Assembly: GCF_900102195.1 (NCBI RefSeq)
Contig: NZ_FNBE01000006.1
Span: forward strand, 1 to 64,000
Length of the DNA stretch: 64,000 nt
Reading direction: 5' to 3'
Source: Pseudonocardia oroxyli
Lineage (GTDB): Bacteria > Actinomycetota > Actinomycetes > Mycobacteriales > Pseudonocardiaceae
Numbering within the stretch: the stretch's first letter is position 1; every line of letters begins with the position of its first letter. Shown in pieces: positions 34,482 through 38,913 of the stretch. The position numbers and the translations under genes were made by a program. The notes under the pieces were generated by a model, which was not told the origin of the DNA, ran no database searches, and saw nothing but the letters and a program-made list of their open reading frames with translations.

Positions 34482-34525
34482 CACAGCCGATGCACAGGAG
34501 ACGCTCACCGCCACCACAGCGGTCG
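34482..34525 (+). promoter_or_regulatory. PhoP-box-like array 1 (four 11-bp units) before the response regulator
   Basis: Units CACAGCCGATG, CACAGGAGACG, CTCACCGCCAC and CACAGCGGTCG begin at 34482, 34493, 34504 and 34515, exactly one helical turn apart. The first pair fits CACAGC-N5-CACAG, that is the known mycobacterial PhoP box (TCACAGC-N4-TCACAGC). It ends 16 bp before the regulator's ATG, so autoregulation is likely. Confidence 0.8.
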
Positions 34526-34541
34526 GGGGCACGCTCCTATC

Positions 34542-35285
34542 ATGTCCGAGGTGAGCGAGCAGTCCGCACCACTGCGCCGGGCCGACGGCGGGCCCGTCCG
34601 CGTGCTCGTGGTGGACGACGAGGCCACGCTCTCCGACCTGCTGCAGATGGCGCTGCGCTACGAGGGCTGGGAGGTCCGCACCGCGGGCGACGGCCGCGCC
34701 GCGGTCCGCACGGCGCGGGAGTTCGCGCCGGACGCGGTCGTCCTGGACATGATGCTGCCGGACCTCGACGGGCTCGAGGTGCTCAAGCGGCTGCGCGCGA
34801 GCGCCCCCGAGGTGCCGGTGCTGTTCCTCACCGCGAAGGACTCGGTCGAGGACCGGGTGGCGGGGCTGACCGCGGGCGGCGACGACTACGTGACCAAGCC
34901 CTTCAGCCTCGAGGAGCTGGTCGCGCGGCTGCGCGGGCTGCTGCGCCGGGCCGGGATGACGGCGGCGCGGCAGGGCTCGGAGCTCGTCGTCGGTGATCTC
35001 GTGCTGGACGAGGACTCCCACGAGGTCCACCGCGGCGACACCGCGGTCGAGCTGACCGCCACCGAGTTCGAGCTGCTGCGCTTCCTCATGCGCAACCCCA
35101 AGCGCGTGCTGTCGAAGGCCCAGATCCTCGACCGCGTGTGGAACTACGACTTCGGCGGCCAGTCCAACGTCGTCGAGCTCTACGTCTCCTACCTGCGCAA
35201 GAAGATCGACGCGGGCCGCGCACCCATGATCCACACCGTCCGGGGGGCCGGCTACGTGCTCAAACCGGGGACCGCATCGGGATGA
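34542..35285 (+). CDS. PhoP-like OmpR-family response regulator
   Basis: A 247-residue regulator, the same length as M. tuberculosis PhoP. The receiver domain holds VLVVDDEATL, the phospho-acceptor Asp69 in VVLDMMLPDLDG, LTAKD and the Lys of YVTKPFSLEELVARLR. The winged-helix domain runs from about 150 to the end (LTATEFELLRFLMRNPKRVLSKAQILDRVW; NVVELYVSYLRKKID; IHTVRGAGYVLKP). The kinase gene follows after 4 bp. PhoP-box-like arrays lie before this gene and before two glycosyltransferase transcription units, so these are the predicted regulon. No Shine-Dalgarno was seen, and the start is set by family alignment. Confidence 0.93.
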   Translation: MSEVSEQSAPLRRADGGPVRVLVVDDEATLSDLLQMALRYEGWEVRTAGDGRAAVRTAREFAPDAVVLDMMLPDLDGLEVLKRLRASAPEVPVLFLTAKDSVEDRVAGLTAGGDDYVTKPFSLEELVARLRGLLRRAGMTAARQGSELVVGDLVLDEDSHEVHRGDTAVELTATEFELLRFLMRNPKRVLSKAQILDRVWNYDFGGQSNVVELYVSYLRKKIDAGRAPMIHTVRGAGYVLKPGTASG

Positions 35286-35289
35286 CGGC

Positions 35290-36726
35290 ATGACGCTGCG
35301 CGCCCGGACGCTGCGCGCCCGGCTGGTGGCGACGGTCCTGCTGCTGCTCGCGCTGGTCGGCGCCGTGATCGGGGTGGCGACCACACTGGCGTTGCGCGGT
35401 TTCCTCTACGGACAGCTCGACGCCGAGGTCCTCAGCGCCGCCAGCCGGTTCGCCGTGTCGCGCAGCCAGCCCGCCCCGCCGGGGGCGCCGACGGACTTCC
35501 TCGGTCCCGCGCAGCGTCCGCGCACGGTCGGCGCGGTCGTCGTGGGAGACACCGTGCAGGACGCGGCGGTCACCGACCGGCGCGGCTCGTCCAGCCCGGT
35601 GTCGGCGGCGGACCAGGCGGTGCTCGCCGCCGTCTCCCCCGGTCCGTACCCGCGGACGGTCGACCTGTCGCTGGGTGCGTACCGCGTGGTGGCGCTCACC
35701 ACCGCCGACGGGGTCCTGGTGGTGGGGCAGCCCGCCGAGCAGGTCACGGACGTGGTGAACCGGCTGGTGGTGATCGAGCTGATCGTGATCGGGGTGGCCC
35801 TCGCGGGCGCCGCGGCGGTCGGTCTGGTCGTGGTGCGCCGGGAGCTCCGCCCGCTGGAGGAGGTGGCGGGCATCGCCGCCGCGGTGTCCACGATGGAGCT
35901 GGACTCCGGGGAGGTGGACCTGGCCACCCGGGTCCCCGAGCCCGACGACCGGACCGAGGTCGGTCAGGTCGGGGTCGCGCTGAACCGCATGCTGGACAAC
36001 GTCTCCGGTGCGCTCGACGCCCGTCAGGAGAGCGAGACCCGGCTGCGTCGCTTCGTCGCGGACGCCAGCCACGAGCTGCGTACCCCGCTCGCCGCCATCC
36101 GCGGGTACGCCGAGCTGAGCCTGCGCGACCCGGCGGGCTCGGCGTACCCACTGGCGCGCATCACCTCCCAGGCCGAGCGGATGTCCGCCCTGGTCGAGGA
36201 CCTGCTGCTGCTCGCCCGGCTGGACGCGGGCAGGCCGCTAGAACGCACCGAGGTCGACCTGACCCGCCTCGTGCTCGACGCCGTCTCCGACGCCCACGCC
36301 GCGGGGCGCACCCACCGCTGGGAGCTCGACCTCCCCGACGAGCCGGTGACCGTGACCGGGGACGCCTCCCGGCTCACCCAGGTGCTCACGAACCTGCTCG
36401 CCAACGCCCGCACCCACACCCCCGCGGGCACCCACGTCACGGTCGGCCTGCGCCCGGGCGCGGTGGTGACGGTCTCCGACACCGGCCCCGGCATCCCCGC
36501 CGACCTGGCCCCGCACGTCTTCGAACGCTTCGCCCGCGGCTCGGCGGGCCGGGCCCGGGCCGGCAACGACACCCCCGGCACCGGTCTGGGCCTGGCCATC
36601 GTCGACGCGGTGGTGGCCGCCCACGGCGGCACGGTGCAGCTGACCAGCCGCCCCGGCCACACCGCGTTCACCGTCCGCCTCCCGATGTCCGACTCGCGTG
36701 TCGAGAGTGGGGGACTCGCGGGATAG
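35290..36726 (+). CDS. sensor histidine kinase partner of the PhoP-like regulator
   Basis: A 478-residue membrane kinase. TM1 is about residues 12-35, with an extracytoplasmic sensor of about 120 residues, TM2 about 157-180, then HAMP. HisKA has the phospho-acceptor His261 in DASHELRTPLAAIRGYAEL. HATPase_c has its N-box NLLANARTH, G1 DTGPGIP and G2 GTGLGLAIV. It would phosphorylate the regulator encoded 4 bp upstream. The sensor domain contains a Pro-rich stretch (RSQPAPPGAPTDF) and no recognisable ligand domain; the signal is unknown. Confidence 0.94.
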   Translation: MTLRARTLRARLVATVLLLLALVGAVIGVATTLALRGFLYGQLDAEVLSAASRFAVSRSQPAPPGAPTDFLGPAQRPRTVGAVVVGDTVQDAAVTDRRGSSSPVSAADQAVLAAVSPGPYPRTVDLSLGAYRVVALTTADGVLVVGQPAEQVTDVVNRLVVIELIVIGVALAGAAAVGLVVVRRELRPLEEVAGIAAAVSTMELDSGEVDLATRVPEPDDRTEVGQVGVALNRMLDNVSGALDARQESETRLRRFVADASHELRTPLAAIRGYAELSLRDPAGSAYPLARITSQAERMSALVEDLLLLARLDAGRPLERTEVDLTRLVLDAVSDAHAAGRTHRWELDLPDEPVTVTGDASRLTQVLTNLLANARTHTPAGTHVTVGLRPGAVVTVSDTGPGIPADLAPHVFERFARGSAGRARAGNDTPGTGLGLAIVDAVVAAHGGTVQLTSRPGHTAFTVRLPMSDSRVESGGLAG

Positions 36727-38774: not shown

Positions 38775-38805
38775 CGCCTGCGCCCGAGGACCATCGGCAA
38801 GGAGA

Positions 38806-38835
38806 CCGGCCCGCGCCCACCAGGGCACGGGCCGG
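38806..38835 (+). terminator. hairpin after the first GT39 gene
   Basis: CCGGCCCG (38806-38813) and CGGGCCGG (38828-38835) flank an inner GCCC/GGGC stem with an ACCA loop, one mismatch apart. It lies 31 bp after the stop and has no U-tract, as is usual in high-G+C actinobacteria. It separates the first GT39 gene from the next array-driven promoter. Confidence 0.6.
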
Positions 38836-38869
38836 CCGTCGTGCGCGGCGACCCCCGGGGCCCGCCGTT

Positions 38870-38913
38870 CACAGCCGGCGCACAGGCGGGTCCCACGGCC
38901 CGGACAGCGAGGG
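38870..38913 (+). promoter_or_regulatory. PhoP-box-like array 3 before the GT2-GtrA gene
   Basis: Units CACAGCCGGCG, CACAGGCGGGT, CCCACGGCCCG and GACAGCGAGGG start at 38870, 38881, 38892 and 38903, preserving the 11-bp period and unit order of arrays 1 and 2. The first pair reads TCACAGC-N4-GCACAGG. It ends 17 bp before the ATG of the GT2-GtrA gene. Confidence 0.78.

Follow-up and report, generated by a model that had tools for sequence, protein, structure and literature searches.

The pho box of Escherichia coli PhoB is built of 11-bp repeats that replace the −35 element and lie about 10 bp before the −10 element. Mycobacterium tuberculosis PhoP binds arrays of three or four motifs more tightly than a two-motif direct repeat, and the crystal structure of PhoP on DNA shows a hydrogen bond between N212 and base C7 of the motif T4C5A6C7A8G9C10 (PMC4832192). 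Streptomyces CutR binds TAWATAAA, not CACAG repeats (PMC12802291).

In Bacillus subtilis, the small regulon of the two-component system YrkPQ includes the YkcB GT-C transferase and its GT2 partner YkcC (PMC10128005, PMC5836110). YrkP controls ykcBC, so two-component control of a GT39/GT2 pair has precedent. Deletions of ykcB and ykcC left lipoteichoic acid glycosylation unaltered under the tested conditions (PMC5836110). HexRK of Clostridioides difficile adjoins the glycolipid genes hexSDF, activates them, and has a role in resistance to envelope antibiotics (PMC10128005). No relevant description of a GT39/GtrA-linked system came up in a literature search on Streptomyces, and no described regulon was found for the widespread actinobacterial two-component system analyzed here.

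In a Pseudonocardia oroxyli locus that encodes this system, three repeat arrays are, with a probability of about 0.83, four-site operators of the local regulator, through which it would activate its own operon, GT39a, and GT2-GtrA/GT39b. Binding, activation, and leaderless starts are predictions from sequence.

Putative operator arrays and genes of the locus

The window, the whole 64,000-nucleotide stretch of DNA that was analyzed, contains the following arrays and genes.

34482..34525, + strand: array 1, four 11-bp units, putative operator of the response regulator gene (kept before 82/84 orthologues)
34542..35285, + strand: OmpR/PhoB-family response regulator, receiver and Trans_reg_C (Pfam), with recognition helix NVVELYVSYLRKK
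35290..36726, + strand: sensor histidine kinase with HAMP, HisKA, and HATPase_c (Pfam), operon partner of the regulator
36731..36774, + strand: array 2, four units, putative operator of GT39a (sequence and conservation)
36792..38774, + strand: GT39a, PMT_2 and YkcB_C (PF13231, PF24878; Pfam), predicted GT-C polyprenyl-phosphate-sugar glycosyltransferase
38870..38913, + strand: array 3, four units, putative operator of GT2-GtrA/GT39b (sequence and conservation)
38931..40214, + strand: GT2-GtrA, GT2 and GtrA/DPMS transmembrane protein (PF00535, PF04138; Pfam), predicted polyprenyl-phosphate sugar synthase
40228..42270, + strand, approximate start: GT39b, second PMT_2 and YkcB_C protein (Pfam), in the GT2-GtrA operon

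Read directly from the sequence, the units are, in order, CACAGCCGATG, CACAGGAGACG, CTCACCGCCAC, and CACAGCGGTCG in array 1 (34482), CACAGCCGCCG, CACAGGTGGAG, CACCGTCGGGG, and CACAGCGGGCC in array 2 (36731), and CACAGCCGGCG, CACAGGCGGGT, CCCACGGCCCG, and GACAGCGAGGG in array 3 (38870). An earlier sequence-only reading had reported three four-unit arrays at 34482, 36731, and 38870, before the response regulator, the first GT39 gene (GT39a), and GT2-GtrA/GT39b. All are present there, and the spacing is 11 bp throughout. Units 1, 2, and 4 are CACAG-like, the fourth unit of array 3 being GACAG, and the third unit is degenerate. The same reading gave unit 4 as (C/G)ACAGCGnG; (C/G)ACAGCG is correct, but not all three arrays share the trailing nG. 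It also equated units 1 and 2 with the mycobacterial PhoP box, TCACAGC-N4-TCACAGC. The period and the CACAG core agree with this box, but the 5′ T of the mycobacterial heptamer occurs in one of the nine good units, whose common core is CACAG(C/G).

The regulator contains a receiver domain and a winged-helix Trans_reg_C domain, both above cut-off (PF00072, PF00486), and direct repeats of ~11 bp lie at its candidate target promoters, as expected for the OmpR/PhoB family. The YkcB C-terminal domain is found on both GT39 proteins and the GtrA/DPMS domain on the partner GT2 (Pfam), consistent with enzymes of the YkcB/YkcC type. By family, GT2-GtrA would make a polyprenyl-phosphate sugar and the GT39 proteins would transfer the sugar to an acceptor outside. 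Long Gly/Pro-rich linkers separate the membrane part from YkcB_C in GT39a (window 38240-38430) and GT39b. A divergently oriented thiolase-like gene (32910-34433) is located upstream of array 1.

Promoter geometry

Each array is followed by a putative −10 hexamer at a conserved offset.

34530..34535, + strand: putative −10 hexamer CACGCT, 15 nt from the unit 4 start and 6 nt before ATG (regulator)
36779..36784, + strand: putative −10 hexamer CAGGGT, GTG start 7 nt later (GT39a)
38918..38923, + strand: putative −10 hexamer AACCGT, ATG 7 nt later (GT2-GtrA)

The geometry was counted in 91 non-redundant four-unit arrays selected by their units alone. All but one (90 of the 91) carry the hexamer nAnnnT at an offset of exactly 15 nt, counted from where unit 4 starts, and the count is 0 at offsets 9-14 and 16-20. 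Such an operator at a fixed distance from the −10 element is typical of a class II activator. ATG or GTG follows the hexamer by 6-8 nt in 89 of the 90 arrays. The GTG start of GT39a at 36792 is assigned because this promoter-to-start distance is conserved. Alignment A1 was selected with a required A...T in the hexamer, and the −10 claim rests on sets made without such selection. In the two-unit regulator promoters of one branch of the genus, the last unit still lies 15 nt from TGTGCT; selection therefore holds the distance between the last unit and the −10 element. Unit 3 matches the box poorly in every promoter, and its sequence varies by gene and is conserved in most same-genus loci: CCCA or CTCA before the regulator, CACC before GT39a, and CACA before GT2.

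We infer that nAnnnT is a −10 element and that the mRNAs are leaderless; the geometry fits both. Leaderless mRNAs are common in actinobacteria (e.g., PMC3898074). The boxes and the −10 element together form a rigid operator-promoter module, and this lock of the arrays to the −10 element was missed by the sequence-only reading.

Since the array overlaps the −35 region, promoter occlusion would fit the identical geometry. The regulator could then act as a repressor that, as a dimer or tetramer, occupies −60 to −27 and blocks polymerase until a signal relieves the block, and repression is known in similar regulators, for example that of Rv1057 by TrcR (PMC11895460). However, the hexamers are poor −10 elements, nAnnnT rather than TANNNT, so the promoters look activator-dependent. 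A −10 spacing fixed in 90/91 arrays is a demand of polymerase contact, whereas a repressor site would tolerate shifts. Repression is thus unlikely, and activation by the regulator is the preferred reading.

Conservation and rarity of the arrays

The comparison covered regulator orthologues and their flanking loci from 60 genus genomes and 151 family genomes; the family is taken to be Pseudonocardiaceae because named Amycolatopsis and Actinomycetospora loci group among these sequences in the gene tree. The sequence-only reading had named lack of conservation in orthologous promoters as one result that would refute the regulon, and the arrays are conserved. Exact CACAG-N6-CACAG is found upstream of 82/84 regulator orthologues (45/47 in the genus and 37/37 in the rest of the family), 35/37 GT2-GtrA genes (19/20 and 16/17), and 28/47 GT39a genes (16/27 and 12/20). 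It precedes none of 82 kinase genes in the genus and family loci, and the upstream regions of 15 more distant, non-orthologous regulators contain no arrays. Other genera of the family carry arrays before the regulator, GT39, and GT2-GtrA, and often before a divergent gene too.

The repeats are strictly phased. Genus counts of CACAG-Nk-CACAG are 93 at k=6, 54 at k=17, and 52 at k=28 (11, 22, and 33 bp), with at most 3 elsewhere, and the family count is 118 at k=6 versus at most 5 at out-of-phase spacers. Over the 60 genus genomes, the four-unit pattern yields 63 matches versus 7 for a reversed control.

The arrays are also rare in their own genome of 6.11 Mb. A genome search for the repeat core, which the sequence-only reading had proposed, locates the two-unit core at one place besides the three window arrays: CACAGNCGNNNCACAG occurs four times, three times in the window and once at C19:26039, and a reverse-pattern control occurs once. 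Exact matches to a loose 39-bp four-unit pattern are confined to the window arrays. Its sole single-mismatch match, C28:188323 (array 188308-188362), precedes a third GT39 gene of the YkcB type, outside the window. The window sites were among the training data of the own-genome model R1, which makes its E-values for them circular; E-values count only for matches outside the training set, such as the C28 array (E=1.2e-5). The C19 array has three units; TAGCGT follows at 15 nt, measured from where the last unit starts, and an ATG comes 7 nt later. The gene behind it, encoding a secreted dioxygenase-like lipoprotein, may belong to the regulon. A further model match falls in antisense orientation within an acyl-CoA-synthetase-like gene (C27:236979); it and the lower-scoring ones were judged to be chance matches.

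The arrays might instead be chance repeats in a G+C-rich genome or copies of a mobile repeat: CACAG-like pentamers are common, and single weak matches arise by chance (11 with up to three mismatches versus 6.5 expected). Such an origin is ruled out for practical purposes by the exact-phase enrichment, the promoter-only placement, and the cross-family conservation, and no repeat extends beyond the unit cores. The arrays are better read as operators.

Several loci depart from the common arrangement. Two four-unit arrays lie 126 bp apart upstream of the GT2-GtrA gene in L040 and L042. Relic GT39a-type promoters with a CACCGG unit 3 occur at L046:3313 and L072:3204, with no GT39a following and a GT2 array less than 200 nt away. 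In L431-L433, L437-L441, L445, and L447-L449, which come from other genera of the family, a divergent array before the regulator faces a gene for a small single-pass DUF5666-like membrane protein. This protein can belong to the regulon in relatives; it has no match in the genome of the window.

Relationship of the regulator to PhoP

The window regulator shares 57.4% sequence identity with M. tuberculosis PhoP. In the gene tree, PhoP groups with mycobacteria, Nocardia, Rhodococcus, and Corynebacterium, and the window regulator falls into a separate clade of 57 rows with support of 100/99. This clade includes Streptomyces, Actinoplanes, Kineococcus, Microbacteriaceae, Cellulomonas, Nocardioides, Arthrobacter, and some Mycobacterium and Nocardia members. 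The tree rules out true orthology to M. tuberculosis PhoP: the regulator of the system described earlier as PhoPR-like is a sister of PhoP and not PhoP itself. CutRS identity is ruled out by the published CutR motif. Five of the six base-contacting residues of PhoP recur in the window regulator (N212, V213, E215, Y217, and Y220); the sixth, S216, is L there and in nearly all members of the clade. Pairs of C[ACT][CT]AG at the 11-bp phase are found upstream of 28 of 33 clade members from named genomes.

Mycobacterium sp. AZCC_0083 (L242) encodes a true PhoP and kinase followed by a GT2-GtrA homologue (67%), and the promoter of this PhoP orthologue contains CACAG-N6-CACAG. The locus is possibly a case of PhoP itself adjoining the GT2-GtrA enzyme.

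Arrays occur in 37/48 regulator-bearing genomes of the genus versus 1/12 regulator-lacking ones (Fisher p=2e-5), the twelve including three that are less than 90% complete. A GT2-GtrA orthologue is absent from all 12 regulator-lacking genomes, where the best partial match is ~40%; its identity across regulator-bearing genomes of the genus is 68-85%. The locus of the sole orphan array, in G033 (L105/L320), retains a thiolase-like gene, and the regulator is deleted, with a C-terminal kinase fragment following.

Residue 212 and base 7 of the box

Residue 212 was compared with base 7 of in-phase CA[7]AG pairs in 206 loci of the clade. Base 7 is mainly C at N212 loci (n=175; C347, T18, A4, G3; CACAG), T at S212 loci (n=11; T25, C7; CATAG), and G at H212 loci (n=20; G37, T5, C4; CAGAG). 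Out-of-phase pairs are few in the 206 loci, and exceptions to the code occur (e.g., L209, L332, and L207). In a tree built without the recognition helix, residue 212 underwent two changes, one to H and one to S, and the operator base changed to match on both occasions. Each switch happened once, so the code is founded on two events.

No GT39 genes lie downstream of S212 and H212 regulators in the fetched loci; the code there connects the regulator with its own promoter rather than with glycosyltransferases. In the H212 branch (Streptomyces and kin; L412, L442-L444), divergent CAGAG arrays precede genes for ferric-reductase-like membrane proteins, and the regulon therefore differs in this branch.

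The arrays are linked to the local regulator because residue 212 co-varies with base 7 and because the regulator, GT2, and nearly all arrays are lost jointly. Together with array conservation, these observations support the regulon proposed earlier, in which the regulator is connected to glycosylation genes. Another OmpR-family regulator, either a true PhoP orthologue or a paralogue, could instead be the main protein bound to the arrays, the local regulator being a mere target. True PhoP recognizes the CACAG core too (PMC4832192), and OmpR-family paralogues are numerous, with 45 scored matches in the genome. Yet the closest of them does not exceed 53% identity to the regulator, the arrays track regulator presence, residue 212 tracks the operator base, and the 15 non-orthologous regulators have no arrays. 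Control by such a protein is quite improbable, and the local regulator is the likely occupant.

Proposed mechanism and comparison with known systems

Under the preferred reading, signalling by the kinase would lead the phosphorylated regulator to stack head-to-tail on the four in-phase sites. The units would lie at about −60, −49, −38, and −27 from the presumed transcription start, so that the regulator covers the −35 region. It would then recruit RNA polymerase to the nAnnnT −10 element at the 15-nt offset from where the last unit starts, and transcripts would begin at or next to the start codon. The targets would be the regulator-kinase operon, giving positive feedback, GT39a, and GT2-GtrA/GT39b. 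The predicted polyprenyl-phosphate-sugar synthase and two membrane sugar transferases would decorate the cell surface; the sugar and the acceptor are presumed.

More broadly, and with somewhat less confidence than for the operators themselves, we think it likely that the regulators form an actinobacteria-wide sister family of PhoP whose natural recognition code pairs residue 212 with base 7, the two having changed in concert on at least two occasions. In this reading, the N212 branch would use a rigid four-site module to control a polyprenyl-phosphate glycosylation regulon with leaderless transcripts. For this widespread actinobacterial two-component system, the analysis supplies candidate targets and a candidate operator; it also connects a PhoP-like regulator with YkcB-type GT39/GT2-GtrA glycosylation and predicts leaderless, activator-dependent promoters at base resolution. 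The paired variation of residue 212 and base 7 offers a specificity code for PhoP-like regulators that can be tested directly.

Tandem-repeat operators of OmpR/PhoB regulators are known; the novelty, within the literature searched, lies in this regulator, its regulon, and the geometry of the promoters. The E. coli pho box differs in sequence and signal and usually has two units, versus four here. Streptomyces CutRS/CssRS are likewise conserved actinobacterial two-component systems and respond to envelope (secretion) stress. C. difficile HexRK-hexSDF has the logic alone in common, as HexS, HexD, and HexF are not GT39/GtrA proteins. B. subtilis YrkPQ-ykcBC shares two-component control of a like enzyme pair, but the phylum and the regulator differ. 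M. tuberculosis PhoP shares the OmpR/PhoB fold, the 11-bp direct-repeat operators, and residues N212, V213, E215, Y217, and Y220. In contrast to PhoP, the system described here has L in place of S216, a dispensable 5′ T, a degenerate unit 3, a fixed distance to the −10 element, and a tiny regulon centered on glycosyltransferases.
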